From: a virus
IMG/VR virus record: IMGVR_UViG_3300017967_000021
Coordinates: 1-61,635 of that record
Length of the DNA stretch: 61,635 nt
Reading direction: 5' to 3' (one strand)
The position numbers and the translations under genes are program-made. Of this stretch, positions 37,552-54,967 are shown piece by piece. How positions within the stretch are numbered: the stretch's first letter is position 1; each line of letters opens with the position of its first letter. A model generated the notes under the pieces. It was not told the origin of the DNA. It was given only the letters and a program-made list of their open reading frames with translations, and made no database searches.

Positions 37552-37571
37552 TTGGACTCCTACATGTATAC

Positions 37572-37793
37572 TTATATAATATCATCAATAATTCTTGATA
37601 CTTTATTATGTAAGTATATTTTTCCAAATTCTAACAATCCCATTGAGGAATGTATAGGTTGGTTGTTTGGCGAATCGGCGTACAGTATTGTTTCACCGTA
37701 TTCATCTATGTAAGCGGCAACGACAATATAAGATGTTACTGGTCCTGGAACTGCGTGTGCGAGAGCATCTTCTATATTACACGGTTGGTTCAT
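37572..37793 (-). CDS. Hypothetical protein, 73 residues
   Basis: A short mixed alpha/beta protein with a Val-Val-Ala-Ala-Tyr-Ile-Asp-Glu-Tyr-Gly strand-turn. No RBS stronger than a weak purine stretch is seen. Function unknown. Confidence 0.58.
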   Translation of the reverse strand: MNQPCNIEDALAHAVPGPVTSYIVVAAYIDEYGETILYADSPNNQPIHSSMGLLEFGKIYLHNKVSRIIDDII

Positions 37794-37794
37794 G

Positions 37795-38112
37795 TCAATT
37801 CCTAACTAGTCTTGTTTTTGTGACTACCATATCTTTTGGTATGTTAATTACAGAGCAAAAGTTCCCAGACTGAGTTATGGTAGAAGCTATTGTGTAGTAG
37901 TTAGGATTAGATTCAGGAGATTCTATTAGGTATCCTGTTGTTTCTACTAAGTAGTCAGAATTATCGTGTTCATCTTCTGAATACCATATGTCTTCGCTCG
38001 AATAGGCATCTCGCCATACTATAGTGTAGATTTTCTTATTAGTTACAGAAGAATCTTTTTTTGTATGTACAATATTTTTTTTATTAGAAGGGGAATATAC
38101 GACTTTTTTCAT
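37795..38112 (-). CDS. Hypothetical protein, 105 residues
   Basis: A beta-rich protein with a Lys/Ser-rich N-terminus. It starts at ATG 38112 after an extended -10-like site on the same strand (38120-38128). A TTG at 38118 is an alternative. No family recognised. Confidence 0.58.
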   Translation of the reverse strand: MKKVVYSPSNKKNIVHTKKDSSVTNKKIYTIVWRDAYSSEDIWYSEDEHDNSDYLVETTGYLIESPESNPNYYTIASTITQSGNFCSVINIPKDMVVTKTRLVRN

Positions 38113-38119
38113 CCCCAAT

Positions 38120-38128
38120 ATTATATCA
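38120..38128 (-). promoter_or_regulatory. Extended -10 promoter element, minus strand
   Basis: Read on the minus strand, TGA-TATAAT stands 7 bases ahead of the ATG at 38112. It repeats the sequence of the plus-strand element at 27754-27762. The very short leader would be unusual, so it may be a chance match. Confidence 0.35.
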
Positions 38129-38314
38129 GGAAGATTCAGTGAAGTCTACATAGTAAGTTTGTCCGAAAACTTCTGTGGCAATTTTGTGAATATCTTCCGG
38201 CTTGGTAGAGTAAAGAGAGAATCCACCATAGCCATATGAAGAGTTTCCAAAGAAATGTCCATCCCATTCGGACAAGTAATGTCTTTTCTTATTCTTTTTC
38301 TTCTTCTTACCCAT
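38126..38314 (-). CDS. Small Lys-rich protein, 62 residues
   Basis: Begins with a run of lysines (Met-Gly-Lys-Lys-Lys-Lys-Lys) and is Tyr/Gly-rich. Its start overlaps the stop of the KTSC gene. No family recognised. Confidence 0.55.
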   Translation of the reverse strand: MGKKKKKNKKRHYLSEWDGHFFGNSSYGYGGFSLYSTKPEDIHKIATEVFGQTYYVDFTESS

Positions 38315-39418: not shown

Positions 39419-39425
39419 GATTTCC

Positions 39426-40600: not shown

Positions 40601-40836
40601 TATGTCTCCTTGTTATCTACTGCAGCCTTAAAGTTAAAGGCTATTTCTTCTAAAAATTCTATTGATTCTCTCATTGCACCTTCAGGTCCAAATTGAGGTA
40701 TTTGTGAGCGATAAAGATTTATAAACAAATTATATATACCATTCTTGATATCGGTGACAGTGTCAGTAGATACCATATCCGGTACATCTTCAACTAGTTT
40801 ATAATCTGAATCACTAGTATTTGTATGCTCCGCCAT
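40600..40836 (-). CDS. Hypothetical protein, 78 residues
   Basis: A small acidic protein whose stop overlaps the SSB start (TAATG), so it is co-translated with SSB. Its second half is helical. Function unknown; likely part of the DNA-metabolism operon. Confidence 0.6.
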   Translation of the reverse strand: MAEHTNTSDSDYKLVEDVPDMVSTDTVTDIKNGIYNLFINLYRSQIPQFGPEGAMRESIEFLEEIAFNFKAAVDNKET

Positions 40837-40839
40837 TTA

Positions 40840-41139: not shown

Positions 41140-41172
41140 TTTATCTACCCTTATTTAAGTTTATATAAATAT

Positions 41173-41201
41173 ATAGTAGCACAAAATAAGTATTAAATCA
41201 A
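41173..41201 (-). promoter_or_regulatory. Sigma-70-like promoter for the regulator/SSB operon
   Basis: On the minus strand TTGATT (41201-41196), 17 bases, TACTAT (41178-41173). The gap between the end of the 367-residue gene and ATG 41139 holds nothing else. Confidence 0.6.
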
Positions 41202-41204
41202 GTG

Positions 41205-42308
41205 TTAACCGGCAATTAATAGAGGATCTCTGAAATTAAAATCAAGAGATACAGAACCAGTATTAATAGTAGAGATCATTTTCCTAAGGGAAGAAGTGAA
41301 ATCAAAGGCGCCACAATCGCGAAGAAGTTGATAAGTATTATCAATGTTAAAAACAACTTCAGAGTGGCAAGAGCAATCTTCGTAGCTACAAGTATCTTCT
41401 ACAGGATCTCCGTCTTCGTCGTAATACTGACAGTCTTCACAACATGCATCAGAAATAGAAAGAGCAGACATATTATGAAGACTCCAATCAACACGATTGT
41501 TATTAAAGACATTGTTGTAATATACGTGATATCTTTCAGCGGTATGAGGAGGAAACCAGTTTGTAAAAAGAATATTGTCGATAGAAATTTTCTCCCACGC
41601 ACGGAAAAAGTTATGAGAAGCTTCGTTTGAACAATAATAATTTGTTAAGGGATTGTACCTTATAGAACTGCTAATATCGGGAAATAACTTTTTAGATCTA
41701 GCATAGCCCCATACAAAAGATTGCATAACAGATTCTGTAAGGTCAGCGTTGTAGCCAGAATTCCAAACCCAATTGTAGGAAAGTTCAACAAGCCCAGGAA
41801 GATTATTGTTAGGAACAATAACATCAGACATGCTATCAAAATATGGTCGGCAAAGCTTGCCGTTAGCATAGAAATTAGTTATAGGGGGAAGATATACAGG
41901 CTGATCAAAAGACTGTATACTTGAGTTAGAAAAGTACATGTATACATCTTCTATGTACATTTCATCAGAATGAGAACCGTATTTTACTACATAAACCTGC
42001 CAAGGAATGGGCAAAGAATATATAGATTGTTCATCAATATTATCTTCGTTAATAGAATCTACTTGAGCATGTATGTGAAAATAATTTTTAACACAAGGAG
42101 GCTTTTCGTAAACAACAACAGAATTGTCAGCGTAAAGTATTCCAGGAGGAAGAAGAGTATCAGATAGAATAGAAGTATTTGGAATAAATTCAAATAAGTT
42201 CATAAAATTCTTCAGCCTACTATAAGCCGCAGGATTATCTTTTACGGGAGTTTTGTACAGGCGGTTATCATAGTAGGAATTTTGAATATCTGGTGTTATA
42301 ACAATCAT
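41205..42308 (-). CDS. E2-like (PRTRC-B/Prok-E2_D-type) protein, paralogue A
   Basis: A 367-residue protein. Residues about 65-155 share a pattern with the proteins at 42305 and 50997: Val-Tyr-Glu-Lys-Pro-Pro, Ile-Pro-Trp-Gln-Val, Met-Tyr-Phe-Ser-Asn-Ser, then Tyr-Leu-Pro-Pro and Asn-Phe-Tyr-Ala-Asn-Gly-Lys-Leu-C153. The Asn-x-Tyr-x-x-Gly-x-x-Cys end matches the active-site region of prokaryotic E2-like proteins of the PRTRC protein B type. The C-terminal part has a Cys-rich stretch (about 300-325). It overlaps the 517-residue paralogue (ATGA). E2 function is inferred from motifs and the Ubl locus nearby. Confidence 0.55.
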   Translation of the reverse strand: MIVITPDIQNSYYDNRLYKTPVKDNPAAYSRLKNFMNLFEFIPNTSILSDTLLPPGILYADNSVVVYEKPPCVKNYFHIHAQVDSINEDNIDEQSIYSLPIPWQVYVVKYGSHSDEMYIEDVYMYFSNSSIQSFDQPVYLPPITNFYANGKLCRPYFDSMSDVIVPNNNLPGLVELSYNWVWNSGYNADLTESVMQSFVWGYARSKKLFPDISSSIRYNPLTNYYCSNEASHNFFRAWEKISIDNILFTNWFPPHTAERYHVYYNNVFNNNRVDWSLHNMSALSISDACCEDCQYYDEDGDPVEDTCSYEDCSCHSEVVFNIDNTYQLLRDCGAFDFTSSLRKMISTINTGSVSLDFNFRDPLLIAG

Positions 42309-43858
42309 ATTGAAATCTCTTTTAAACTTTGATCAATAAGGATATCTGAAATAATATCCATACTGACAATTGTCTCAATTGATGAATTTGAAGAGTTATG
42401 AATTTCATAATCTCCAGATGATTTATCGTAATACAAATATATAAAACTATGTTCCATATTCATCATATTAGAAAGTTCTTCTTGAAAAATAGAAGAAAAT
42501 TCATCAGTATAATCTACTGAATCGTTCCAAGTGGAAGAGATTTTTGTTTTATTTATAGATCTAATAAACTTATTAGTATCTTTATAAACAGAGTCTTCAT
42601 TATTATGGTTAAAGCAAGTAATAAATATTTTCTTGTCTAACTCAGAGACATTAGTGTATCCTGCTAAAACTTCGTGATGATGATTCCTTGAACGAATATA
42701 ACCAGTTATATCATTGGAGAAAGATAAGGATTGATTCGTAGAATTAATCTTATCAAAAGACATACGTTCAAATGAACTATAAAAATCTAAAGTCTCTTCA
42801 AGATTAAAGCTAGACATCATTTTGAAGAAATATTTTGAGTGAGCAGAACCAGAAGAAGAAAGAGATTGTGACTTTAAGGTAGCAATCTTAGAGTCAGTTA
42901 AGTCAGGAAACCTAGCAAGAAGAGAATTGTAAGTAGGTCTACAATATTCTTTATAAGTATCTGAAGGATTTAAAACAGAATTTTGAAGAACAGGAAGACC
43001 AAGGTCAAGATTCCATCCACCAGATATATATTCATTTATCATCATAGAATATATATATCTAATAGACTGGGATTCAAAATCAGGTATTTCTTGAAGACTA
43101 TTTGAAAAACAGATTGTTCCATCAGTATAAGAATTAGGAAACATACAAGGAACATACTGATCATCGGAAGTATCAGTTAATGGAGAAGATGAAAAATATA
43201 TCCTAAAAGATCTATCAGATAGATGGTGATATTCTGAAGTAGAAATTCTAGTTAAAGTCCAGGGAACCCATATTTCATATGATTCAATATGTTTTGTTGT
43301 ACCAGAAGCCCTAACAGGCTTATAATTAACTATAGCCTTAAAAGGAGGACGTTCTACATAGATTGTACCATTTGAAGAAAAGTACCTTAAAGATGTAGGA
43401 TTTATGTCTGTCGAATCATTGAAGGCAAAGCTGTTATTGTAGTTTAAAGATTGAGTTATAACATCTTGGTAATCATAAGAATATCCATGAGTTAACTCTA
43501 CGCTAAAAAACAAAGGTAATTTTGTGAGATTAATGTGCGAGGCCTTGGAGAGAATCGAGGTAAGATTCTGTTTCGAATTTAAATACAAAGAATCAGTAAG
43601 TAAATCTGTAAGAAAATTACCAGAAATAATTTCACGAATGGTAAGACCATGTCGATTTTCTGCATCAATAGGATAACAGTCTAAAGGAAATTGAGTATCC
43701 TGGTTGGATAAATATTTTGCAATAGAGTTAGTTATAGTGTCGCGATAATAATAAACATCATTTTTCTCACGAAGAAAAACATTGTAAAAAGAGTTTTTCT
43801 GATAGCGGTTGTTATCTGAATCTGTAGTAAGAACTGTAAAATTAGGAAAATTTGACAT
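42305..43858 (-). CDS. E2-like (PRTRC-B/Prok-E2_D-type) protein, paralogue B
   Basis: A 517-residue protein with the same block as its neighbour at about 165-250: Val-Glu-Arg-Pro-Pro, Trp-Val-Pro-Trp-Thr-Leu, Ile-Tyr-Phe-Ser-Ser-Ser-Pro-Leu, Tyr-Val-Pro-Cys-Met-Phe-Pro-Asn-Ser-Tyr-Thr-Asp-Gly-Thr-Ile-C250. C250 would be the thioester cysteine. Both it and paralogue A continue with a Gly-Trp-Asn or Ser-Gly-Tyr-Asn segment. The long Ser/Asn-rich N- and C-terminal regions have no recognised domain. Confidence 0.55.
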   Translation of the reverse strand: MSNFPNFTVLTTDSDNNRYQKNSFYNVFLREKNDVYYYRDTITNSIAKYLSNQDTQFPLDCYPIDAENRHGLTIREIISGNFLTDLLTDSLYLNSKQNLTSILSKASHINLTKLPLFFSVELTHGYSYDYQDVITQSLNYNNSFAFNDSTDINPTSLRYFSSNGTIYVERPPFKAIVNYKPVRASGTTKHIESYEIWVPWTLTRISTSEYHHLSDRSFRIYFSSSPLTDTSDDQYVPCMFPNSYTDGTICFSNSLQEIPDFESQSIRYIYSMMINEYISGGWNLDLGLPVLQNSVLNPSDTYKEYCRPTYNSLLARFPDLTDSKIATLKSQSLSSSGSAHSKYFFKMMSSFNLEETLDFYSSFERMSFDKINSTNQSLSFSNDITGYIRSRNHHHEVLAGYTNVSELDKKIFITCFNHNNEDSVYKDTNKFIRSINKTKISSTWNDSVDYTDEFSSIFQEELSNMMNMEHSFIYLYYDKSSGDYEIHNSSNSSIETIVSMDIISDILIDQSLKEISI

Positions 43859-43865
43859 AGTTAAC

Positions 43866-44828
43866 TCAGCTTAATGCAGAGGCTATAAAAGGTTGTTTGC
43901 TTTCCGGCTGGAGACTATCTGGTAAAACTTGAATGGTGTCTTCTTTGTATGAATCAAGAAGTTCTTCAAGAAGTTGAGTTACATGAGAAGAAACTTCTAG
44001 CTCAGGTGTTTCTGGTGGAACAGTAACATTAAAGACAGTTTGATTTTCTGTATTGTTAAATACGGAATAAGAATATTCCATATTTGAAAGATGAATTTTT
44101 CTTACAGAAAATACAGTAGAATTATCTGTGTTTGCATGATTTACTGAAACTTGAGTAATAATTTCAGATTTAGATTCATGCATAGGACAAAGAGAGAAAT
44201 TTTCAAAGAAGTGACAAGGCATGTGCTTGTCAGCAAAAGAAGGATGAGAACATGAAGGATATCCATCAATCATGTTTGCAAACTGATAATGATCTGATAT
44301 GTACTCTTTGGATGGAGAAACATATGTAACGTGAGAACAAATAGGAGGAGAAGAGTTAACTGAGTTATCGTTTAACTCATAATTAAAAAGATTGGGCATA
44401 TAATGAAGTAAAAGATAATTCTCAAATCCATATGCTGGCTTAACCCAGCAAGAAAATATTTCAAGAGAAAATGTTGTAGTTAATATTTCAGAATAATCTT
44501 TATCTAAAAATAATACCGAATTTGCATACTCGCTAGCATTGGATGAAGTTTCGGTAACCCACTTGTACATGTAATCAAGAGAATTTTTGGATACAGAAAC
44601 AATAGGAGAAGATATTCCATTGGGACTATAATACATTTCTCCAGAACCAAAATAATCATATATCAAAACATTTTCAGGAAGTTCTGACATTTCGTTAAGA
44701 TAGAAATTTGCATTAAGAGATTGGTTATCCCTAAATATGTTAGCAGTGAAATAGGTTTGATTATAGGTAGAGCTTTGACGCATAGAATAAGTTTCGTCTG
44801 TATCGAAACTTGTATCATATTTAAACAT
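43866..44828 (-). CDS. Hypothetical protein of the E2-like cluster, 320 residues
   Basis: A Ser/Asn/Tyr-rich protein similar in composition to its E2-like neighbours. It has a Glu-Met-Tyr-Tyr-Ser-Pro-Asn-Gly segment and several Cys/His pairs (for example His-Met-Pro-Cys-His-Phe). I cannot align the E2 cysteine block with confidence. ATG 44828 follows GGGGAT; an upstream start at 44840 is less likely. It may be a highly diverged member of the same family or a substrate. Confidence 0.55.
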   Translation of the reverse strand: MFKYDTSFDTDETYSMRQSSTYNQTYFTANIFRDNQSLNANFYLNEMSELPENVLIYDYFGSGEMYYSPNGISSPIVSVSKNSLDYMYKWVTETSSNASEYANSVLFLDKDYSEILTTTFSLEIFSCWVKPAYGFENYLLLHYMPNLFNYELNDNSVNSSPPICSHVTYVSPSKEYISDHYQFANMIDGYPSCSHPSFADKHMPCHFFENFSLCPMHESKSEIITQVSVNHANTDNSTVFSVRKIHLSNMEYSYSVFNNTENQTVFNVTVPPETPELEVSSHVTQLLEELLDSYKEDTIQVLPDSLQPESKQPFIASALS

Positions 44829-44830
44829 AA

Positions 44831-45337
44831 TTATCCCCAAGTAGAAATAGATTTAATTTGCAATTGCTGTTGTAGGTCTGCGTTTTGTTTGCGCAGTTCA
44901 ACAATCTCTACATTTAAATCAACTATATTTTTTCTATAAAATTTATTGTCATTAGCTAATTTGCTTATTACGGATTTAATATCTGAAAAATAATTAGAGT
45001 AATCAACATCGTCATTTTCTAGATCATTGTAAATATCATAATAAGAAATTATATTAGGAACAAGATAATGGGAATGTATGGTGTGCATTCTGGTAATCAG
45101 AGCTTGCAAAAGAGAATCTCTTAGAGATGGAAGAAGATCATTAAAAACATTATTTTTAAGGTCAGTTTTACTGCCTTTGTAATAAAAACTATAATTATTA
45201 GAATCCATATCGCATGTATGAATAGTTAATAAGAGATCAGGATCCGCATGAACATCAAGAGGTAAAAAGTGAGTTTCAATTTTGGAATTCACGTAAGAAA
45301 TAAAATCATTTAGATCATTGAATTTTGAAATTACCAT
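44831..45337 (-). CDS. Coiled-coil protein of the Ubl locus, 168 residues
   Basis: The last 45 residues form a coiled coil rich in Leu, Gln and Asn (Leu-Arg-Lys-Gln-Asn-Ala-Asp-Leu-Gln). The first part is Ser/Asp/Tyr-rich with mixed structure. RBS AGGT. Unknown function; its position suggests it belongs to the conjugation locus. Confidence 0.58.
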   Translation of the reverse strand: MVISKFNDLNDFISYVNSKIETHFLPLDVHADPDLLLTIHTCDMDSNNYSFYYKGSKTDLKNNVFNDLLPSLRDSLLQALITRMHTIHSHYLVPNIISYYDIYNDLENDDVDYSNYFSDIKSVISKLANDNKFYRKNIVDLNVEIVELRKQNADLQQQLQIKSISTWG

Positions 45338-45347
45338 TTATAAACAC

Positions 45348-45560
45348 CTAATCTCTTAGTACCTCTAGCGAATCTAGAGATAGTTTTCCTGTTTTTAAAA
45401 GTTCAACAAACGGAGATTCAACAAGATGCAAAGAAGTTACATCTGGATATATTGAATGCACTGCAGAATAAATTAATGACAGATAAGAAAAATTATCTAA
45501 TATTAAATAGCTATCTTTTTCTAGACAAAGAACACAAGAACTATCAGTCGTTTGAGTCAA
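45348..45560 (-). CDS. Small hypothetical protein, start uncertain
   Basis: The frame is open well into the upstream gene. The most sensible start is a TTG at 45560, which overlaps that gene's end and gives about 70 residues. Cys-Val-Leu-Cys near the start and a helical C-terminus are visible. ATG starts at 45614 and 45641 would overlap the neighbour more. No clear RBS. Confidence 0.45.
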   Translation of the reverse strand: MTQTTDSSCVLCLEKDSYLILDNFSYLSLIYSAVHSIYPDVTSLHLVESPFVELLKTGKLSLDSLEVLRD

Positions 45561-45927
45561 GTAGCTTTTGGTTAACCAGGTCCTCAACGGCTGAGGCAAG
45601 GTTTGGATCTTCATCGGCCAGGTTTGCTGCTGAGGCATCACGCATCACCTCCAGCATTTTCTTACGAGCCTCTGTAAGAGAATTGTTGAAAGAAGTTCTT
45701 TCCTGATCTGTAGCAAAAGCCATTTGTGCAACAAGAGCTTCCATGAATACAGCTTGTTCGCCATAACCAATGATCAAGGTAGCAATTTGCTCATCAATAG
45801 AATTAATACGATTTTCTAATTCTTGAAGTTTTTCAGAAAATCTAACAACAGCACTTCCGATTACTTCTTCAACAATAGACATAACAGCCTTAACTGTTGC
45901 CTCATCAATTTGGGGAATGTCTGTCAT
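45544..45927 (-). CDS. Helical protein of the Ubl locus, 127 residues
   Basis: Highly helical with a central coiled coil (Leu-Gln-Glu-Leu-Glu-Asn-Arg-Ile-Asn-Ser-Ile). ATG 45927 overlaps the upstream stop (ATGA). It has no recognised family. Such helical adaptors often serve as substrates or oligomerisation partners, but here this is only context. Confidence 0.62.
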   Translation of the reverse strand: MTDIPQIDEATVKAVMSIVEEVIGSAVVRFSEKLQELENRINSIDEQIATLIIGYGEQAVFMEALVAQMAFATDQERTSFNNSLTEARKKMLEVMRDASAANLADEDPNLASAVEDLVNQKLLDSND

Positions 45928-46550
45928 TTTTCGTACCAATCCGTATTGTTAGCAACGTAAGATGATATTGCCATATCGACAATGTACGATATTGAGCAAA
46001 CATCTTGACGAGTAACCTTGATCATGTCAGCTGATATAAGCTGCTTCATGTCTGGAATAAAGGCGCCAGAGTCAGACTTGCGAGCAGCAAAATGACCACA
46101 TTTCCAAACGAATGAATTAGGATCATATTCATCGTTTGATTGCCAGTGATGCGCCTTAAATATTCTAGAGACAGGTTTGTTATCTACAACGGCACCTCCG
46201 TAAGATACAAAACCTTCAGGAGTTGGAACACCCATCTTAGCATTTGCAGGATAGTTGTTCTGTGCGGTGCCGCTAACAATGCTCTTTAGGTAGGCACCGA
46301 AATCGATTGCATCAACAAAAACATTTGTGCTGCTAAGAAGTTTTCCATCAGAAGAAGTTTTACCAATATCAATTTTGAATTTTAGCGCTTCGTACCAAGG
46401 ACGAATAGCTAAGAATCCAGATTGAGATTTAGATCTAAACCACTTCTTATAAAGATCGCTTTGATATTCTTTGGTATCTTTATTGACGGGAACTGAGTCT
46501 TCATCTAAAGAACTCATAAAATCGTCAATGTTATCTAATATTTCTGACAT
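45924..46550 (-). CDS. Hypothetical protein downstream of the AAA+ gene, 208 residues
   Basis: ATG 46550 follows GAGGTGAGC, seven bases after the AAA+ stop. It has an acidic N-terminus and then an OB- or beta-rich body (Gly-Phe-Leu-Ala-Ile-Arg-Pro-Trp-Tyr-Glu, Ala-His-His-Trp-Gln). A helical end has Cys in Val-Cys-Ser-Ile-Ser. It could be an adaptor for the ATPase. No family identified. Confidence 0.6.
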   Translation of the reverse strand: MSEILDNIDDFMSSLDEDSVPVNKDTKEYQSDLYKKWFRSKSQSGFLAIRPWYEALKFKIDIGKTSSDGKLLSSTNVFVDAIDFGAYLKSIVSGTAQNNYPANAKMGVPTPEGFVSYGGAVVDNKPVSRIFKAHHWQSNDEYDPNSFVWKCGHFAARKSDSGAFIPDMKQLISADMIKVTRQDVCSISYIVDMAISSYVANNTDWYEK

Positions 46551-46557
46551 GCTCACC

Positions 46558-48141
46558 TCACGCAAATGATAGTTTAGTTGAAGACTTATTTCTACCAAGA
46601 ATTATCTTAGCATCTTCCATCTGTTCTGTCGAGGCCCAATCCCACTGTTCAAGAGCATATTGATACATGCTTTTAACAGTATCGGGATGCTTACGCCAGA
46701 TAGTATTACGGATGGTAGGAATGCGTTGGAGAATATCGTTGGTATTGATTGGACGAGCATGTTCAGAAACAACATAGAACTTAGTTTCTTTGATAAGAGA
46801 AACTATCTCTGCACCGGTCATAAAGGCAGAAGATTCAGCAAGCGCGTCATAATCATACTCTTGGTTTTTGATTGAGCTAAGATGAATCTTAAAGATATGG
46901 CTACGCTCGGAATGTGATGGCAGACCGACAAAGAATATCTTGTCAAATCGGTCTGCGCGTAACATTTCTGGCTTAAGAGAATGAAGCTCATTAGCTGCGC
47001 ACAAAAGGAATGATTCTTCAGGAAGTTCTTGAAGACCTGTTAAGAACTCACCATGAACACGGTCAGTGGTGCCACTGTCGGCACCGTCTCCACTACCTGA
47101 AAGATCACGGCCAAACTCGTCAATCCAAACGCATAAAGGATTCATGAGTTTGATCTGCTGAAATACAGCGCGCATGTTGGCTTCTGACTGGCCAATATAC
47201 TTGTTCATAACTTGTGCAATACCAGTACGAGCAAGATCAAGATTAAGCTCAGCAGCAGTTGCCTGACAGATTGCTGATTTACCAGTACCAGGAACACCAA
47301 CCATGAGCATTCTTCTGATAGGAGTTATGCCGTAGTCCTCAGAAAGCTGAGGGTTTTGGCGAAGAACTGAAGTGCGCCTAATGATATCTTTAATATTATC
47401 AAGACCACCAATGTTGTCGAAGGTTATATTGGGGTTGATAATTTCAAGAATACCACGAGACTTAATATTAGACATTTTAATATCATTAACATGCTTAGCG
47501 GTCAAAGTTTTTTCTTCGCTGATGACATTAAGGCATGCAAATATGAATTCGGTTTCACTAAAGCCTAGACCTGCGCGAGCAATTTCTTTGATATTGTTTT
47601 CATCAAAAGAATTAGGAGCACGGTCTTTAATGTGTGTAAGAACTGTTGCAAGTTCTGACAGGTTAGGATAAACACTTTCCAGAACTTCAAAGCAGGGCGT
47701 TAGAGGTTCTGGACATTCTTGGGGACTAATGTAAATAACTTGTTGAGGAAGATCGGTTTTAGAATCTGACCAAAATGCTTGGCGATACCTAGAAAGGGCA
47801 TCGTACAGCATAGGTATTCTGTACTGAAGTCTTTCGGCATCGACACCGGCAATAAACTTGAAGACAGTTACATTGAGCTCATCGGAATTATCCAGGTAAT
47901 CGTTAGCAAGTTCTGGATGGTCAGTGGTTATGTAATCGCTTTCGCCTTCTTCGTCAGAGCGAGGATTTTGTACGAGTACTGGCTTCCACTCATTGTCTAC
48001 ATATTTACAGAAGCCTTTAATGCTATCGATGTAATAATAGTTTCGGTCAGGAACCGCCGAAACTATTATATCGATTGAGCGAATAAAATCTGGATCTTGC
48101 AACCAGAGATTCGGTAGTCCCAGCTTAATTTTGTTAATCAT
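46558..48141 (-). CDS. Ycf46-type AAA+ ATPase
   Basis: A 527-residue AAA+ protein. The C-terminal ATPase has Walker A Gly-Val-Pro-Gly-Thr-Gly-Lys-Ser at about 282-289, Walker B Cys-Val-Trp-Ile-Asp-Glu at about 337-342, and a Leu-Arg-Ala-Asp-Arg-Phe-Asp-Lys-Ile-Phe-Phe arginine-finger block. The N-terminal part with Ile-Tyr-Ile-Ser-Pro-Gln, Ala-Arg-Ala-Gly-Leu-Gly-Phe-Ser and Lys-Ser-Arg-Gly-Ile-Leu-Glu matches the Ycf46 family. Related AAA+ machines unfold or remodel proteins; next to a Ubl/E1/JAMM set it may process Ubl-tagged proteins (inference). ATG 48141 is preferred to TTG 48153. Confidence 0.88.
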   Translation of the reverse strand: MINKIKLGLPNLWLQDPDFIRSIDIIVSAVPDRNYYYIDSIKGFCKYVDNEWKPVLVQNPRSDEEGESDYITTDHPELANDYLDNSDELNVTVFKFIAGVDAERLQYRIPMLYDALSRYRQAFWSDSKTDLPQQVIYISPQECPEPLTPCFEVLESVYPNLSELATVLTHIKDRAPNSFDENNIKEIARAGLGFSETEFIFACLNVISEEKTLTAKHVNDIKMSNIKSRGILEIINPNITFDNIGGLDNIKDIIRRTSVLRQNPQLSEDYGITPIRRMLMVGVPGTGKSAICQATAAELNLDLARTGIAQVMNKYIGQSEANMRAVFQQIKLMNPLCVWIDEFGRDLSGSGDGADSGTTDRVHGEFLTGLQELPEESFLLCAANELHSLKPEMLRADRFDKIFFVGLPSHSERSHIFKIHLSSIKNQEYDYDALAESSAFMTGAEIVSLIKETKFYVVSEHARPINTNDILQRIPTIRNTIWRKHPDTVKSMYQYALEQWDWASTEQMEDAKIILGRNKSSTKLSFA

Positions 48142-48178
48142 AATAATAACCAATCTAATAATCTGGGTTTGAGTTTAG

Positions 48179-48214
48179 TTAGGGGGGAGCAGGTATTAGC
48201 CTACTCCCCCCTAA
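48179..48214 (-). terminator. 15-bp hairpin between the Ubl and ATPase genes
   Basis: TTAGGGGGGAGCAGG (48179-48193) pairs with CCTACTCCCCCCTAA (48200-48214) with one G-U wobble on the minus strand. The loop is 6 bases. It is not followed by a clear T run, so it may be an attenuator or a processing site that lowers ATPase expression relative to Ubl. Confidence 0.6.
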
Positions 48215-48234
48215 ATTCCCTGTTGGAGGAAATC

Positions 48235-48486
48235 TCAGCCCTTCTCGCCAGCACGGCGATGGAACTCGATGTTCTGACCAGGCTCGATTGTGGCGTTCTC
48301 ATCCATCTTTTCCTTGCCGCAGTATGCGACAGCATCAGATGGGATACCCCAAATCTTGCTGAACTGATCACGAACTTCCTTGACAGTTTTACCAGCGATG
48401 TTGCTTGGCTGATTGTAAACGCCATAGCGAAGATTCGCCATACCAGTTGCAGGGGTGGGCTGTGAATTGTTGCTTGTAGCTTCCAC
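48235..48486 (-). CDS. Ubiquitin-like beta-grasp protein, PRTRC-C-like
   Basis: An 83-residue protein. After a disordered first 16 residues, a beta-grasp pattern follows: Leu-Arg-Tyr-Gly-Val, Thr-Val-Lys-Glu-Val-Arg-Asp, Ala-Val-Ala-Tyr-Cys-Gly, then Ile-Glu-Phe-His-Arg-Arg-Ala-Gly-Glu-Lys-Gly at the end. The final Arg-Arg-Ala-Gly-x-Lys-Gly recalls the C-terminus of PRTRC protein C. The terminal Gly is already exposed, so no trimming is needed for E1 adenylation. GTG start behind AGGAG. The E1-like gene lies 12 bases upstream in the same operon. Confidence 0.78.
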   Translation of the reverse strand: MEATSNNSQPTPATGMANLRYGVYNQPSNIAGKTVKEVRDQFSKIWGIPSDAVAYCGKEKMDENATIEPGQNIEFHRRAGEKG

Positions 48487-48498
48487 TGTATTCTCCTA

Positions 48499-49251
48499 TT
48501 ATACTAATGATGGTTCATTAAGATGAGCATGAGTCCTATTGAAAGGCTCCGCCTTACCAAGACCGAGATCAAAGAAGACCTCTGTCTCATCAGGGTTTTG
48601 ATTTGACACTATTGTTTTTTGTACACGACCAAGAATGAAGGCAGCTACCGCCATGTTAGTAGCTAGTAGCTGAGTGCCACCTTCTATTTCTGATCGTTCT
48701 TGACAAGAGAGTTCACCTGGATTCTTATCTGGTGGGTTAAGATATTCAGGATGGAACTCTTCTGGATGACAAGTGATTTCTAATCCATCACGCTTTTGAT
48801 AATGATAAATAGAACCAAACAATTCATCATCATTACCGCCTGTAAAAACGTCAATGTTATTGAGCTTCCTTGCGGCATCAAAAAGTATAGCACGAGCAGC
48901 AAAGTTATCAACAACCGCAAAAACAACGTCGTTTTCATGGATAAGATCAGTGGCCTTTATCTTTGGTGAATCTTCGTCTGCGACGCCACTAAAGTCGTCT
49001 CCGACCACCCACTTTGGCACAGGTATAATGGTTGTGTTAGGGAATTGCGGAGTGAGTTCCGCTGCTTTGACAACGGCTTTGTTTCCAATTTTAGTAAAGT
49101 CTTGACGCTCTTTATTCTTTTCTTCATAAGTATCTCCATCTACAATAATAAGAGCAGAGCCTGGATACTTCCACTCAAGTAAGCGTACTAGACCAGCGCA
49201 TAGCCAGGTACCAACACCGCCAGCGCCTACAACTACAAATCGTTTACTCAT
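48499..49251 (-). CDS. E1/ThiF-family Ubl-activating protein
   Basis: A 250-residue E1-like Rossmann protein. G9-Ala-Gly-Gly-Val-Gly14 binds ATP, and Val-Asp-Gly-Asp-x-x-x-x-x-Asn-x-x-Arg-Gln (D38/D40, N46, R49) is the adenylation motif. Ala-Val-Val-Asp-Asn follows at about 112-116. C183 in Leu-Ser-Cys-Gln-Glu-Arg is a candidate thioester cysteine. It should adenylate the Ubl C-terminus and hand it to an E2-like protein. The ATG at 49251 overlaps the JAMM gene's stop. Length is that of a simple PRTRC-type ThiF. Confidence 0.85.
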   Translation of the reverse strand: MSKRFVVVGAGGVGTWLCAGLVRLLEWKYPGSALIIVDGDTYEEKNKERQDFTKIGNKAVVKAAELTPQFPNTTIIPVPKWVVGDDFSGVADEDSPKIKATDLIHENDVVFAVVDNFAARAILFDAARKLNNIDVFTGGNDDELFGSIYHYQKRDGLEITCHPEEFHPEYLNPPDKNPGELSCQERSEIEGGTQLLATNMAVAAFILGRVQKTIVSNQNPDETEVFFDLGLGKAEPFNRTHAHLNEPSLV

Positions 49252-50950
49252 AATAATAACTACTTTCATCTAGTGGTACGTAATACTGTTCAAATTGTTC
49301 ACAGCCACGACCATCTATCTTATTGACTGTACCAGAGACTATTAACTCTACATGGCTCTTGGGATCTTTGATCCAGTCAACAAGTAGGCTACGCATTTGG
49401 CTGCAAACAGGAGAGTAATAGTGCTCACATCCAATGCAGTTTACGTTTTTATCTAGATAAATGCTCTGATCTTCAGTTTGGATAAGAGCTTCATAATCGA
49501 GATAATCATTGTATGTTATTTGATGATCGCAATAACACGATGCGTAGTCGTCTTTGTGGACACCACAGCAAATAAGATAGTCAGGATCAAAACTATTTGC
49601 GTGATCTTGTTCGTCAACTTCATCGGTAGAAGAAGTTGAAGAAGGAATTTCAGACAAAAGACTTGTTTCGCAAATAGCCATAACAAAAAGCTGGCGACCA
49701 GATTCATAAGAATCATAACCAACAAGATACACAGGTACGTCATTAGACATGTTGACGCTTTTAGCGTACATGTTGGCAAGCTGCATTACTTCTTGTCTTG
49801 ACGTACCTTTAGCAGATATGGGAATAAAACAAGTGTCACAGAAACCATCGTAAATACAATAGTAGTCAAGATAAGTGTCACAAGAGGGACAATACTGGCT
49901 TTGAGTAGTTTGTGCATCGACTTCTGCAATCAGTATAGAACCTTCAGGTACATCACAACTTGAATAAATATTATTCAAGTGCTTGACCCAAGGAAGGTCT
50001 TGATAATCGTTAGCTTTTGGTAGGCCCGTACCAAGACTGATAGGAGCTTGCAGAAGAATTTGCGGGGCGGACAGATCCTGTGGTGTGTAGACCCCCGCCT
50101 TTGTTGGCAGGGGGAGTTCTTTTTTTACTTTAGAACTCCACTCAACAACGTCAGGATCGGGCTCTTTTTGTATCACAAAATCTTCAAAAACATCTTCAGG
50201 CTTAAGTGTATAAGCTTGACCAGCCATTTGAAGTTCTATGTGATACTGGGTAGCTCCGTTATTTACACTTTTCTGCCAACCATAAGTAATGTGAATACCA
50301 TCAAAGTCAGCTTGATCAGCATGATCTGTGCCAGATGCGTAAGCTGCCATATGAGGATGACTGTGGACAGAGCCAACAATCATTACATCATCGGGCTTCA
50401 TCTCTGCAATACTGTGAGGATCATAATTGCAGTGAGCTGCTGTGTTCTCTTGATCTGGAACAAGAATACCCCAGCCTTCAGGGCCCTCTTTAGTAATGTC
50501 ATATGTTAGCATTACAATTGACTCAGTACCATGCTGAGCGTCAACAAGACGGAAAAACTGATCAAGCTTGTCAACAATAACATGAGGAATGGCAGGCATT
50601 TTGTAATGGGCTAATTCTTCAACAGAAATAAAATTATCAGGAAGAGAAGGAGCACATTTGGAAACACTTCTGCCAACAAAGTTATTAACAACTTTGAACC
50701 ATTGCGTTTCATGGGTGTAGGTTGGCGCAGGTGGGGTTTGCGGCTTACCGTTGTTGGTATGCTTATTGTTGTTAGCAGGGGGATTTACCTTCTTTTGATA
50801 ATCGGCAAGAAGGTAGTATATACTAAATCCCATGCCCTCAACAATATCGCAAATATCATCTCTGTCTGCATAAAAGACAGGAAGTCCTTCGGCAGTCCAG
50901 AAGTGATTGAGATCGTCAAGAGTGATCTCTTGTGTGGCTGTAGTTGACAT
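49244..50950 (-). CDS. JAMM-metalloprotease protein with C-terminal zinc ribbons
   Basis: A 568-residue protein. An N-terminal domain of about 110 residues has no clear match. The JAB/MPN domain at about 115-260 has an exact JAMM motif: H196-Ser-H198-Pro-x6-S206-x-x-D209. This zinc protease removes or processes ubiquitin-like tags in eukaryotes and in prokaryotic Ubl loci. About 340-370 is a zinc ribbon (Cys-Pro-Ser-Cys, then Cys-Asp-Thr-Cys), and several more Cys pairs follow to the end. AGGAG site. It corresponds in role to PRTRC protein A but is much longer. Confidence 0.85.
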   Translation of the reverse strand: MSTTATQEITLDDLNHFWTAEGLPVFYADRDDICDIVEGMGFSIYYLLADYQKKVNPPANNNKHTNNGKPQTPPAPTYTHETQWFKVVNNFVGRSVSKCAPSLPDNFISVEELAHYKMPAIPHVIVDKLDQFFRLVDAQHGTESIVMLTYDITKEGPEGWGILVPDQENTAAHCNYDPHSIAEMKPDDVMIVGSVHSHPHMAAYASGTDHADQADFDGIHITYGWQKSVNNGATQYHIELQMAGQAYTLKPEDVFEDFVIQKEPDPDVVEWSSKVKKELPLPTKAGVYTPQDLSAPQILLQAPISLGTGLPKANDYQDLPWVKHLNNIYSSCDVPEGSILIAEVDAQTTQSQYCPSCDTYLDYYCIYDGFCDTCFIPISAKGTSRQEVMQLANMYAKSVNMSNDVPVYLVGYDSYESGRQLFVMAICETSLLSEIPSSTSSTDEVDEQDHANSFDPDYLICCGVHKDDYASCYCDHQITYNDYLDYEALIQTEDQSIYLDKNVNCIGCEHYYSPVCSQMRSLLVDWIKDPKSHVELIVSGTVNKIDGRGCEQFEQYYVPLDESSYYYE

Positions 50951-50996
50951 TATACTCCTATAATATTTAGTGTATTAGATCCTTGTTTCTGAATGC

Positions 50997-53036
50997 TCAA
51001 AATGGACTTATTCCATAGGTAAAAGAAAAGCTAATATTAGAATTAGCTAAGTATGAAATGAATTTATCTTTATCGTAATCAAAAACTTCTGAATAAGTTT
51101 TGAAGAAAAGATATGTGCTGATAGGAGGAGGATACCAAGCAGAAGAGGGATCTTTTGCCTTATGCTTGTTTACAATGTCATCAATATGATCACTGCAATT
51201 GGAACAAAGGAATAAAGTTTTTACTAAAATTGAATGGTAAGAAAAGTTTCCATTAGGTAAATCTAAAAAGAAAGATTGAACTATTTTATCAAACAGTTCT
51301 TCTTCTTTATACATAACTGAGTAGCTTACAGAATCAGGATCTTCTTCATCAGGATCTGGTTCCATACCAGAAGGTATGATATAACCATCATCTTGACTAA
51401 AGATATGCGTTTGGGTTTTATTGAAAGAACTAGGATAAGAATTAAAGTTAAAATGTTCATTCTTATATAGTTGCATTTCATCAAAAGAATATTCTTCACC
51501 ACAAGCACATTTAAGAAGTTCATGAGACTCAGAATTCTTAATTATGGGCGGAGCAACTATCCAGCATCCATTGCAAAAATAGTGGCCAGAATACGAATTT
51601 ACAGAATATTTGGTTGGGTCAGGAACAACAGTTGAACAAACACTGCATTTAGTATCCTGGTTACTGTTACTAGGAATGCAAGAGTAGCAAATTGGAGAAA
51701 GGTCTTCTGTAAGAGGAAAGTAGAAACGAGAGTCTTCATAAAGAGGAAGATCTGCAACAACGTAAGCACTACTGCAACTTGTGCATTCTACTTTTTTGAA
51801 GTTTTCATCGATATAATGTTGATGGATCCATTCTTCAATATACTGATCATAGAAAATGTTTGGATCTTCTATTGGAAAATAATCTCCTGCAGGTTCAATA
51901 AGTATATAGTTTTCGTGCCAACAACTATCGCAGGCTATTTGATCAGGTTGATCAGGAATATTGTAACAAGATTCTATATCTGGATCTATTTCAAGATTAC
52001 AGTACTTGCAATTCTTGAAACCTTCAGAGTCTGAATTAGAATTTTGTAGAGTAAGATTTTCTCTGTTTTCAAGAGTTTGAGAAAAAACATCTTGAGATGT
52101 ATGATGTCCAACACTAGCAGAACTAGCATATGCTTTTACAAACATGGACAGAATTTTCTCAACTGGATAATCAATTTGATGTCGAACTATAGAATTTACA
52201 GGCTTAGGAATTAGGGTATCAGTGTAATAAGCCTGATAGTTACCGAGCAAGGCCGTTTGAATGTCCAGAGGCATGCCCTGTGGATCGTGACGATCCTGAG
52301 TATCTAAGTCGGTAACAAGAACTGGTATCCAAAGATCTGGATTTAAAGTCCACTCATAGCCGTTAGAATCGGTATAGTCTTCCCAAGACTGTGGATCCCA
52401 AAGATGAGAATATTCTGTATCATTATTGTAATGAGCAGCATAAAAACGAGGACCATCAGTTTCAGACATATTGGCGTCGTTATAAGTTTCTACGCCAGAA
52501 CATCTCTGAAGAATGTGAGAAAGTCTCTCGTTAAAGGGAAGATTGGAGATATCGTGAGTGTGATATAAACAAATCCAGCCTACACCATTACCTCTGTAAC
52601 CTTTACAGTTAATATTAGGAAGATTAACATGGTAAAGCTGAGAAGAAGGAGAGGTAATAGGATAAGGGCTGTAAAATGTTCTAGCACCAAGTAGATTTTG
52701 ATTAAGAAGATCTGCGATAACAATTCTGTATGGTTGAGCTACATAATAGGTGCGAGCCGAAGAATCGCCTTCGTGAGCTCCCCAGTTGATATAATATTTT
52801 CCAGGCTTAATTTGATAAACAATTTGTTCATGATTATCAGCCTTACGGTAAGCAAGCATCCCTGTACCATCAACTGGAAGAAGGCCAGTATCTAAAAGAG
52901 CTGAGTTAGAAAAGTTAACATAAAAAGAATTAATATCTTTCTCTGTTATATTTTCTATACCAAAAGAATTTACCGTAGAACGAAAGGTAAATAAACCTTC
53001 CGAGTTCTTTACAAATGAGTAATCTACTTGTGACAT
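50997..53036 (-). CDS. E2-like PRTRC-B/Prok-E2_D-type protein with zinc-ribbon array
   Basis: A 679-residue protein. Residues about 75-160 resemble PRTRC protein B (Prok-E2_D): a Val-Tyr-Gln-Ile-Lys-Pro-Gly strand, Ala-Gln-Pro-Tyr-Arg, then Leu-Tyr-His-Val-Asn-Leu-Pro-Asn-Ile and Gly-Trp-Ile-C156-Leu-Tyr-His. C156 is the proposed catalytic cysteine. Residues 335-510 carry at least four CxxC pairs in treble-clef or zinc-ribbon arrangement, which in other systems bind partners or act like RING/E3 modules. It is the first gene of the Ubl operon. No experiment supports E2 activity here. Confidence 0.68.
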   Translation of the reverse strand: MSQVDYSFVKNSEGLFTFRSTVNSFGIENITEKDINSFYVNFSNSALLDTGLLPVDGTGMLAYRKADNHEQIVYQIKPGKYYINWGAHEGDSSARTYYVAQPYRIVIADLLNQNLLGARTFYSPYPITSPSSQLYHVNLPNINCKGYRGNGVGWICLYHTHDISNLPFNERLSHILQRCSGVETYNDANMSETDGPRFYAAHYNNDTEYSHLWDPQSWEDYTDSNGYEWTLNPDLWIPVLVTDLDTQDRHDPQGMPLDIQTALLGNYQAYYTDTLIPKPVNSIVRHQIDYPVEKILSMFVKAYASSASVGHHTSQDVFSQTLENRENLTLQNSNSDSEGFKNCKYCNLEIDPDIESCYNIPDQPDQIACDSCWHENYILIEPAGDYFPIEDPNIFYDQYIEEWIHQHYIDENFKKVECTSCSSAYVVADLPLYEDSRFYFPLTEDLSPICYSCIPSNSNQDTKCSVCSTVVPDPTKYSVNSYSGHYFCNGCWIVAPPIIKNSESHELLKCACGEEYSFDEMQLYKNEHFNFNSYPSSFNKTQTHIFSQDDGYIIPSGMEPDPDEEDPDSVSYSVMYKEEELFDKIVQSFFLDLPNGNFSYHSILVKTLFLCSNCSDHIDDIVNKHKAKDPSSAWYPPPISTYLFFKTYSEVFDYDKDKFISYLANSNISFSFTYGISPF

Positions 53037-53045
53037 TTTTACCTA

Positions 53046-53438
53046 TTAATCTTCTGAAAATAGAGATTGTATATCTTTATCGATTTCATCTTGAAAATCA
53101 CCAAAGGCAAAAGCAAGCCAATTGGGATTGTTTTGAGCCATTTCTACAACAGTCATTTTTGACTGAAGATCAGATACAACTTGAACAAGATCTGCCAAAC
53201 GGTCGCAAGCTTTAGAAAGTTTTTTGAGATCAGCTCTAGAAGGTCCTAGGGCATATATGTTTCTTAGAACTGGAAAGCCGTTGATATGAAATTTATCAGA
53301 ATCGATTATTTTAATAATTCTTTCAGTAACTTCATTCAGTTCATTTTCAAGAGTTTTGTGATTTTTGTTAACTCTCGAAAAAGAAAAGTTGAATGAATTT
53401 ACAGTATTATTAGAAGGGATCTGTTCTGGATACGTCAT
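53046..53438 (-). CDS. Helical hypothetical protein, 130 residues
   Basis: Helical and charged, with an AAGGA site. It overlaps the previous gene by 29 bases. Because it lies directly upstream of the E2-like gene it may be part of the locus. No family recognised. Confidence 0.6.
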   Translation of the reverse strand: MTYPEQIPSNNTVNSFNFSFSRVNKNHKTLENELNEVTERIIKIIDSDKFHINGFPVLRNIYALGPSRADLKKLSKACDRLADLVQVVSDLQSKMTVVEMAQNNPNWLAFAFGDFQDEIDKDIQSLFSED

Positions 53439-53685
53439 ACTTTGAAGTCCTTATCTTCATGGCTGATGATCTTATTTTCATGAAATCTCTGATTTCAATC
53501 AAAGACCACCAGACAGTTGCTGAACCGACTGCTAATTTTGTAAGCAGCCTGGCAAGATAGGCTTCATCAAGATTAGGAAGATTGGGATTAATACCTTGTA
53601 CATCAAAGTAACAATCTTCAAATAATGCGTCAATCTTGTTCGATAAAACCTTTTTCTTCTGAGCTTTGTCTTTTATGAAAGACAT
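53410..53685 (-). CDS. Hypothetical protein, 91 residues
   Basis: A basic helical N-terminus and a Trp-Trp pair mark this protein. GGGGGA site before ATG 53685. It overlaps genes on both sides. Function unknown. Confidence 0.6.
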   Translation of the reverse strand: MSFIKDKAQKKKVLSNKIDALFEDCYFDVQGINPNLPNLDEAYLARLLTKLAVGSATVWWSLIEIRDFMKIRSSAMKIRTSKYDVSRTDPF

Positions 53686-53830
53686 TTTGTGTATTCCCCC
53701 TATTAAGGATGCCGTGCCGTGTAATATTATCTAATTCTAATATAGGAGAGATGAGTTTATTTTTGTATTTATTATTTTTTATTTTAGCTGCAAGTCCAGC
53801 TGCAACAAAGGGAATTAATATGAAATACAT
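53630..53830 (-). CDS. Small protein with N-terminal membrane segment, 66 residues
   Basis: The first 15 residues are hydrophobic (Phe-Ile-Leu-Ile-Pro-Phe-Val-Ala-Ala-Gly) and the rest is basic and polar. Its start overlaps the M50 protease stop and its end overlaps the next gene by 56 bases, so its reality is less certain. Confidence 0.45.
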   Translation of the reverse strand: MYFILIPFVAAGLAAKIKNNKYKNKLISPILELDNITRHGILNRGNTQNVFHKRQSSEEKGFIEQD

Positions 53831-54282
53831 GCTTTCATTTCCTTTTTGGCCTGCTTATATTTAGCTCCATCACTACCAAAGTAATTGGTAATTATTTCAC
53901 TAATAGCAAGAACAAATAGAGGTACAAATGACATAAATGTATTAATATAATTATAGAGCATTATAAGAACAGCGCTTAGTAATCCAACTAAAGGACCAGC
54001 TAAAGCTGTATTTTTCTTACCAAAAGGGCTAAGTTTAGAAACTCTAGTTATACCAATAATAAAAAATGGTATTGGTATAAAGAAAGGTAACTTAGCTTTT
54101 CCTTTATAATATTTTCCTATGAAGTAGTGAGCTAATTCATGGGCTAACATTATTAAAAGAACTACATAAACAAATGAACTATGTACAATAGCATAGTTTA
54201 TCTGGGCAGCAGCTACAATGGTAGCGGCTGTGTAAAATCCATCTGGAAGTTGTTTAAACTTATTTTTTATATAGTTGTACAT
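53815..54282 (-). CDS. M50-family (site-2-type) membrane metalloprotease
   Basis: A 155-residue membrane protein with four or so hydrophobic segments. The zinc motif His-Glu-Leu-Ala-His lies at about residues 48-52, in the second segment. Ala-Gly-Pro-Leu-Val-Gly in the third and Asp-Gly near 140 match the order of site-2 proteases. These cleave membrane-bound or membrane-adjacent helices, such as anti-sigma factors or signal-peptide remnants. A phage copy may activate a regulator or attack a host membrane protein. The ATG at 54282 is preferred over a TTG at 54291, but the RBS fits either. Confidence 0.75.
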   Translation of the reverse strand: MYNYIKNKFKQLPDGFYTAATIVAAAQINYAIVHSSFVYVVLLIMLAHELAHYFIGKYYKGKAKLPFFIPIPFFIIGITRVSKLSPFGKKNTALAGPLVGLLSAVLIMLYNYINTFMSFVPLFVLAISEIITNYFGSDGAKYKQAKKEMKACISY

Positions 54283-54967
54283 CTTGCCCAAAAGCCTCCG
54301 AAACTTTGGTAGATAAACCTTCTGTGGCTAATTCAGAAATAATATTAGAATGAATATTATCAACAAGATGAGAATAAGTAATCTTTAGTTTATCGACATC
54401 AAACTGGTCATCAAATAAAGATGGCTCACAGGGCATATCAAGCTTTTCAGATAACTGAGAATATATAGCCCTATTGATAATAAGGGAATGTCGAGATACA
54501 GCGAGGTGGGTATAATAAGTAGATCTAACGTGAAGATCTCCAACATTGACGCCAAAAAGCTCATTAAGAGCTTCTTTAAATTCAGTGCCGTCATTGCCAA
54601 AGATAGACTCAGACAAACTAATATATGCCATAAGACGAATAATCTTTGCTTCAGTAGATTTAAACAATTCTAAAAGAGAAAACCTACCATCAGTCAATTC
54701 ATCTAAAACATATCTTATAGCATAAGCGTGACCCGAAGGACCTGCTTCTTTAGAGATAAAAGCGCTAGCAGAATTAATGTACGCTATTGCAAGACGAGCT
54801 TCAACACCGTTAAGAGATCCAACAGAATTTTCAGCGGACTTTATTGAATCAACAAACTCTTGTTCAGTTTGAGAAAGATTATTGGGTTCGTTTTGTATGG
54901 AAATATTTGATGGCGAATCTTCTTCTGGTTCATAATCAAACAAATCGTCATCATTGTCAAAGGACAT
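54260..54967 (-). CDS. Hypothetical protein, 235 residues
   Basis: An acidic disordered first 30 residues is followed by a helical body with repeated Leu-rich helices. AAAGGA site. It overlaps the protease by 23 bases. No family is recognised, and it has no metal or membrane motif. Confidence 0.6.
   Translation of the reverse strand: MSFDNDDDLFDYEPEEDSPSNISIQNEPNNLSQTEQEFVDSIKSAENSVGSLNGVEARLAIAYINSASAFISKEAGPSGHAYAIRYVLDELTDGRFSLLELFKSTEAKIIRLMAYISLSESIFGNDGTEFKEALNELFGVNVGDLHVRSTYYTHLAVSRHSLIINRAIYSQLSEKLDMPCEPSLFDDQFDVDKLKITYSHLVDNIHSNIISELATEGLSTKVSEAFGQDVQLYKK

Follow-up and report, generated by a model that had tools for sequence, protein, structure and literature searches.

A viral gene cluster predicted to encode ubiquitin-like protein conjugation together with a Cdc48-like AAA+ ATPase

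The stretch of DNA analysed here, positions 1-61,635 of the IMG/VR virus record IMGVR_UViG_3300017967_000021 (61,635 bases, referred to below as the window), carries a set of genes that resemble the components of ubiquitin-like protein (Ubl) conjugation. Read along the minus strand, the five core genes encode an E2-like protein, E2a (50997..53036), a JAMM (Prok-JAB) metalloprotease with C-terminal cysteine pairs (49244..50950), an E1/ThiF adenylating enzyme (48499..49251), an 83-residue Ubl modifier (48235..48486) and a classic AAA+ ATPase (46558..48141). All five open reading frames (ORFs) are open and adjacent on this strand, confirming the observation of an original prediction that was made from the letters of the DNA. 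The genes for E1 and the JAMM protein overlap by 8 nt, while 12 nt separate E1 from the Ubl, 93 nt the Ubl from the AAA+ ATPase, and 7 nt the latter from the gene of a 208-residue protein (45924..46550). The gene run then goes on through small genes to two further E2-like proteins, E2b (42305..43858) and E2c (41205..42308), whose genes overlap by 4 nt. L-numbers and the label G008 are our own names for related contigs and records.

The Ubl gene has a GTG start and the encoded protein ends in AGEKG, with the terminal glycine exposed as encoded. Library scans, Pfam and NCBIfam included, gave no significant family match for this protein, and its profile matched PDB sequences at chance level only. 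The AlphaFold (AF2) model, obtained with a 17-sequence alignment, is a beta-grasp fold with a mean predicted local distance difference test score (pLDDT) of 80.2 and low-confidence ends. A Foldseek search of the PDB with this model returned 63 matches at E 0.001 or better, headed by a Bacteroides fragilis ubiquitin-like protein (E 1.2e-4), and the best 50 of the 63 are ubiquitin-family chains or complexes. The C-terminus reads [AS]GEKG in 40 of 41 contigs, followed in four of these by two extra residues (SL or NI), and the remaining Ubl (L023) ends in AGKKG plus a cysteine. Ubls on the metagenome-assembled genome (MAG) contigs L039, L040 and L042 terminate in [AS]GxKG, and GxKG is found at the matching site in 8/9 aligned PRTRC_C proteins, the exception being L034.

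The E1 protein, which could alternatively start at an ATG farther upstream (49269), matches Pfam ThiF at 1.3e-12 (47.8 bits, cut-off 28.1), and its best solved relative is UBA5 (1.8e-6). The GxGGxG glycine loop and residues D40, N46, R49, K58, K62, D115 and C183 are invariant in 17/17 E1 sequences; here, as for the JAMM and AAA proteins below, the role of each residue is presumed from studied homologues. The candidate thioester residue Cys183 is also retained in all 27 E1s of the alignment used for an IQ-TREE phylogeny, those of PRTRC loci included. Read as unrooted splits, this tree places the E1s of the window's phages with L037 in one group and the PRTRC and Bacillus sequences in another, each with a support of 100. 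L042 stands beside the phage group with a support of only 36, and L023 falls among other MAG sequences with a support of 41-42. A rerooted tree in which L042 grouped with the phages at a support of 100 was rejected, as the unrooted splits give that value to the phages without L042. On this tree the separation of the phage E1s from PRTRC appears firm, while the exact sister group does not.

The JAMM protein matches Prok-JAB in Pfam at 2.5e-6 (27.8 bits, cut-off 25), and the motif formed by E143, H196-S-H198-P and S206-x2-D209 is invariant in 15/15 sequences. Twelve cysteines past residue 350 are likewise invariant in these 15 sequences and would provide added zinc sites. In two distant relatives (L078:10768-11340 and L037:6121-6615) a cysteine-rich segment that resembles the JAMM C-terminus has its own gene between JAMM and E1.

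None of the three E2-like proteins gave a match to an E2 family in Pfam, Prok-E2_D included, or a significant match in the other family libraries, and they were compared with each other and with possible relatives as profiles, for which all E-values are those of single pairs. E2b matches E2c at 8.7e-17 and E2a matches E2c at 1.2e-7, against 0.18-0.67 for four control pairs assumed to be unrelated. A profile of five E2-like proteins from MAG contigs, of which one is a fragment and one was cut from a longer ORF, matches E2c at 1.4e-11, E2a at 2.8e-8 and PRTRC_B at 1.1e-7 with the cysteine aligned; it had no match among PDB sequences. Two of the MAG intermediates match Pfam Prok-E2_D below its cut-off (L040, E 9.8e-5; L038, E 0.0071). 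Each of the window's proteins has an invariant candidate catalytic-type cysteine, namely Cys156 of E2a within NLPNINC...GWICLYH (16/16), Cys250 of E2b within N-x-DG-x-IC (15/15) and Cys153 of E2c within NFYxNGxLC (15/15). Homology of E2a, E2b and E2c to E2-like proteins, with conservation of a catalytic-type cysteine, is supported by these profile comparisons. The C-terminus of E2a is variable and cysteine-rich and is missing from some relatives (L008, L010); in its region of approximately residues 335-395, ZZ, FYVE, LIM and PHD fingers are matched with a Z near 3, a resemblance that may reflect no more than a common arrangement.

The earlier label of E2-like for 50997..53036 therefore stands through a chain of profiles that passes through MAG intermediates, with no support from Pfam and a poor predicted structure. 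Several extra E2-like proteins had also been proposed, which holds for E2b and E2c. The third candidate, a cysteine-containing protein that is encoded on the minus strand and present in only part of the family (43866..44828), was rejected, having E-values of 0.25-0.65 against five E2 profiles. Three small genes lie between it and the 208-residue protein (44831-45337, of 168 residues, 45348-45641 and 45544-45939) and have only weak matches below cut-off. Compared with two E2 profiles, three of the small genes in the interval 45348-46550 reached an E-value of 0.059 at best; the 168-residue protein was scanned with family libraries, where it had no match above cut-off.

The ATPase matches Pfam AAA at 1.1e-23 and has the features of a classic AAA protein of the Cdc48/PAN clade: a Walker A motif, an Asp-Glu Walker B motif, the arginine pair of the second region of homology and a pore loop of the form K/S-F/Y-V/I-G. 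The closest solved proteins to this ATPase, which the original prediction had labelled Ycf46-type, are a VCP-like ATPase and Cdc48, and an unfoldase activity is predicted. Aligned relatives have a conserved tryptophan near the C-terminus (WKI, WK, W, WDLKV) where the protein of the window ends in SFA. Such C-termini are reminiscent of, though not identical to, proteasome-docking tails.

A search of IMG/VR identified 23 contigs with the E1 and, by profile, 42 with E2a, giving 45 distinct contigs of which 20 were found in both searches. L001 is a twin of the window from the same phage, with an E1 that is 100% identical and neighbours at 99-100%. Several of the related contigs are 190-216 kb in length and one is 268 kb. 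When the same gene order was sought in these viral genomes, E2a, JAMM, E1, Ubl, AAA and the 208-residue protein were all present, in an intact block, on 37/37 contigs with at least 7 kb from the E2a start, and contigs with at least 9.5 kb contain E2b in 21/21 cases and E2c in 19/21. With E1 on 23 contigs, E2a on 42 and the block complete on all 37, the gene set is not due to chance. Ratios of nonsynonymous to synonymous substitution (dN/dS) were determined for seven pairs where computable, and are rough, with several dS values above 1 and four that were not computable: they are 0.01-0.16 for the Ubl, 0.02-0.15 for E1, 0.03-0.19 for the AAA protein, 0.02-0.12 for the 208-residue protein, which is thus constrained to about the level of E1, and 0.14-0.57 for E2b and E2c, 0.57 being the maximum anywhere. 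A constrained core with faster E2b and E2c is as expected if these are the parts that face targets. A terminase-family match is present in 12/14 related records, with none in the window or its 86-kb twin; 11/14 control genomes are also terminase-positive, presumably through prophages, so that terminase is no more than supporting evidence for a phage origin. A WhiB gene suggests that the host may belong to the Actinobacteria. Neither the E1 nor the E2a of the window had a match in the INPHARED collection.

Many of the relatives encode a threonine peptidase like HslV and the 20S beta subunit downstream of the locus (for example L084:4228-4842); in five loci where the distance was measured, its gene lies 3.0-3.6 kb past that of E2c. 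It was found in 14/24 related records, including 11/16 of those of at least 150 kb, and is 200-209 residues long in ten aligned sequences. Matches to phrog_1040, 'peptidase HslV family', have E-values of 5e-21 to 7e-24 in 5/5 scanned, and PF00227 is matched in 6/12 large relatives, above its cut-off in one. The best NCBIfam matches, to an archaeal beta subunit (4.8e-8) and to HslV (4.2e-7), are below cut-offs and cover mainly the C-terminal half. T2, the first residue after the methionine, D18, R20, K42 and D188 are invariant in 10/10 sequences, and we take these to be catalytic-type residues. The corresponding slot of the window (37552..38306, minus strand), between the genes for an 88-residue protein (38307-38573) and a zinc-ribbon protein (37126-37551), contains small ORFs only and no peptidase. 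In the 268-kb record G008 two different copies of the E2c/E2b plus HslV-like region are approximately 215 kb apart, either through a real duplication or because a single contig combines two phages.

By sequence comparison the nearest named family is PRTRC, the type 6d Ub-E1-E2-JAB operons described by Iyer et al. 2006 (PMC1779556, relevant sections). Such loci share with that of the window a Ubl with a GxKG end, an E1 with a (P/L)SC cysteine, a JAMM protein and an E2-D-like protein. The best NCBIfam match of E1 is PRTRC_ThiF (TIGR03736; E 8.8e-7, 28.5 bits, cut-off 144.75) and the sole match of the JAMM protein is PRTRC_A (TIGR03735; 3.4e-4, 20.2 bits, cut-off 101.8). Membership of PRTRC itself was rejected: both scores are far under the cut-offs, and NCBIfam matched none of the 20 window proteins from 38557 to 54967 to ParB or to the PRTRC proteins B, C, E and F. 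The E1 tree splits the two groups, and, in contrast to PRTRC, the window's locus has three E2 paralogues and its own AAA+ ATPase.

A search of genome contigs gave six E1 relatives among 76 pattern matches. L042, a deltaproteobacterial MAG contig (JAFDCZ010000004), has AAA, Ubl (ending AGEKG-AG), E2-like, JAMM and E1 genes in a row. It differs from the window's locus in having a single E2 and an AAA protein of the proteasomal ARC/Mpa type with an OB domain, which matches the pup_AAA proteasome ATPase model at 2.2e-83 but below its cut-off (280.7 bits against 504.75). E1 and JAMM matches occur on all five MAG contigs L038-L042, L041 being without a clean E1 frame. L040 has the order E2-JAMM-E1-Ubl and L039 JAMM-E1-Ubl, and each of L038-L041 is without at least one part on the stretch examined. 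The Parcubacteria MAG contig L038 (137-5871) has two E2-JAMM-E1 triplets in tandem, with no [AS]GxKG Ubl found on the stretch examined. L037, a 10.4-kb piece assigned to an Ectothiorhodospiraceae MAG, has the phage gene arrangement and may be a misbinned phage.

When INPHARED was searched with the E1 of L042, one record was found, Bacillus phage vB_BauM_KLEB27-3. Its gp194-gp199, like the Bacillus plasmids L025 and L028, form a set of Ubl, E2-D-like, JAMM and E1 genes on a phage or plasmid, and gp196 matches a plasmid protein annotated as Prok-E2_D (1e-43). The Ubl of these elements, unlike that of the window, is a tandem precursor of two to four units, their E1s are on the PRTRC side of the tree, and no AAA protein is annotated in the stretches examined, where annotation alone was consulted and hypothetical neighbours were left aside. 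KLEB27-3 gp199 (L105:6718-7425, OM634661), annotated as hypothetical and encoded beside the E2-like gp196, PRTRC_A and E1 genes, consists of four 57-residue Ubl units that each end in AGVKG, and L028 and L025 encode four and two units that each end in AGTKG. Such endings support the glycine of [AS]GxKG as the processed end. No report of a phage Ubl set of the window's kind was found among the matches listed in openly licensed literature (titles and the starts of abstracts), nor anything there pairing PRTRC with ubiquitin-like proteins or concerning KLEB27-3, and the terms JAB, Ubl, ThiF and E2-like were absent in a term search of a jumbo-phage overview (PMC7824862).

The original prediction had named the Ubl, the E1 with intact motifs, the exact JAMM motif, the AAA+ ATPase, kinship with PRTRC and a phage setting, and on these it agrees with the family matches, the beta-grasp model of the Ubl, the profile link to PRTRC_B and the terminase records, as it does on two of its extra E2s; the third E2 and a role against host defence fared less well. 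It did not recognise the combination of genes, which is less isolated than it supposed, given the related sets on MAG contigs and the PRTRC-like set in a Bacillus jumbo phage.

Around the locus, two small conserved genes (130 and 91 residues) lie upstream of E2a on the minus strand (53046..53685). Farther upstream, also on the minus strand (53815..54291), is the gene of a membrane protein that has an HExxH motif and matches Peptidase_M50 weakly (18.5 bits, cut-off 27.2). Just downstream of the locus are SSB-like and UDG genes. Sigma-70-like promoters are not enriched (68 against 70.0 in shuffles). There is an excess of terminator-like sites (28 against 8.7), but within the block the minus-strand ones fall inside genes. 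The left half of the window (394-31229) has matches to a 2OG-Fe oxygenase-like protein, a Nol-like carbamoyltransferase, a tryptophan halogenase and an aminotransferase, an unusual metabolic cargo.

Gene content and order, conserved catalytic-type residues, homology and purifying selection are all observed at this locus. The best explanation, which we consider somewhat better than an even chance, is a phage-encoded Ubl-conjugation pathway with conjugates that are handled by the phage's own unfoldase. The set would probably be expressed from one minus-strand gene run. Judged from the conserved residues, E1 would adenylate Gly83 of the Ubl, take the Ubl on Cys183 and hand it to Cys156, Cys250 or Cys153 of one of the three E2-like proteins, from which it would pass to target proteins selected by the faster-evolving parts of the E2s. 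The JAMM protein would trim those Ubls that have a short tail and take the Ubl off again, and the Cdc48-like AAA+ ring would recognise tagged proteins and unfold them through its aromatic pore loop. We regard conjugation as likely, the unfolding of conjugates as plausible and degradation in the window's phage as speculative. In many relatives the unfolded products could go to the HslV/20S-beta-like peptidase encoded downstream, while in the window's clade, where it was not found, they may undergo remodelling or fall to a protease of the host. On this view these phages have a form of the PRTRC/6d sort of Ubl conjugation that uses three E2-like proteins and an AAA+ ring encoded alongside, and to which many relatives add a threonine peptidase.

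Several results weigh against this explanation. No E3 was identified for the pathway. The profile E-values are not database-calibrated; compared directly with PRTRC_B, E2a has no match (E 0.39), so that its kinship needed the MAG-contig intermediates, and E2c and E2b are weak (1.2e-4 with a probability of 55%, and 4.8e-4 with 32%). The Ubl resembles PRTRC_C modestly, with E 2e-4 and a probability of 46% in an alignment that pairs the two C-termini, and the JAMM protein has no significant sequence match to Rpn11 (E 0.11). The model of E2a, in which a UBC/RWD fold was sought, is poor, with a mean pLDDT of 54.9; this low-confidence model gave no Foldseek match in the PDB at E 0.001 or better, and with VIA gave 66 chains at Z of at least 2, among them a UEV chain at Z 3.0 and, at Z 2.4, in a row for MavC and its substrate, the chain 6ulh_C, which we take to be the E2 UBE2N. 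The AAA protein also resembles the antiphage ATPase IetA among the PADLOC models (1.2e-28), so this class of ATPase is not specific to Ubl systems, and the related phages are colinear across many genes, so that shared order alone is no proof of a pathway. The peptidase was not found in 10/24 records, namely the window's twin, its near relatives L002, L003, L004 and L006, the distant L076, L078, L080 and L081, and L050; five of these ten are shorter than 90 kb. It is also encoded by 14 phages of INPHARED, a collection without a match to the window's E1, and its link to the Ubl set is therefore suggestive, not exclusive.

A more far-reaching version, in which E1, three target-specific E2s, JAMM recycling, the unfoldase and, in many phages, the peptidase form a complete ubiquitin-proteasome-like pathway that destroys chosen host proteins during infection, is tentative and in our estimate falls well short of an even chance. 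Phage proteasome homologues (PPH/AAH) are already known (Fuchs 2021, PMC8665760). What differs here from PPH/AAH and phrog_1040 is that many records place the peptidase gene on the downstream side of a set for Ubl conjugation, a link not mentioned in the available passages of PMC8665760.

The Ubl could instead tag the phage's own proteins, such as the 208-residue partner, for assembly or replication, with the AAA protein as a remodeller and not a degradative unfoldase. The 208-residue gene always adjoins the AAA gene and shares the constraint of E1, the SSB-like and UDG genes are close by, and the window's clade is among those in which the peptidase was not found; we consider such a role unlikely. 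A sulfur-carrier pathway, in which E1 makes a Ubl thiocarboxylate, the JAMM protein only matures the Ubl and the products are modified nucleotides or a cofactor, has a precedent in the sulfur-assimilation clusters where Ubl, E1 and JAMM co-occur (Iyer 2006, PMC1779556, relevant sections). The E1 does have weak ThiF/MoeB matches, but these are far under the NCBIfam cut-offs, the three E2-like proteins with conserved cysteines speak against such a pathway, and no thiamine, molybdopterin or sulfurtransferase family was found among the other scanned proteins around the locus. An unrelated cofactor pathway was one of the outcomes that the original prediction had named as refuting it; we retain this reading as an alternative of low probability and regard a sulfur carrier as decidedly improbable. 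Least credible to us is that the set mainly blocks or reverses host Ubl tagging of the Bil or CBASS type, with the JAMM protein acting on host conjugates and the Ubl, E1 and E2s as decoys: bacterial Ubl tagging of phage is known (as cited in PMC12660748) and the quicker change of E2b and E2c relative to E1 and the Ubl resembles that of an arms race, but a full forward pathway retains catalytic-type residues that decoys do not need, and PADLOC models of these systems gave only local E1-E2 matches of 10-16 bits on E1 and none on the Ubl, JAMM or three E2-like proteins, so the suggestion that the locus counters host defence finds no specific support.

Bil and CBASS Cap2-Cap3 follow the same logic of E1, E2 and JAMM, with E1 and E2 partly fused, and are defence systems; Ubl tagging in bacteria is known as a means of protection against phages. 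Here the chemistry of Ubl tagging appears on the side of the phage, encoded close to an unfoldase and, in relatives, to a proteasome-like peptidase. The PRTRC-like set and tandem poly-Ubl of a Bacillus jumbo phage with a named host make related chemistry testable now. If the proposed pathway is correct, the locus would unite tag, ligase, protease and motor in a natural assembly of minimal size that bears on how ubiquitin and the proteasome came together, and these phages may tag proteins that are to be unfolded or destroyed in much the way that eukaryotic cells, our own included, do.

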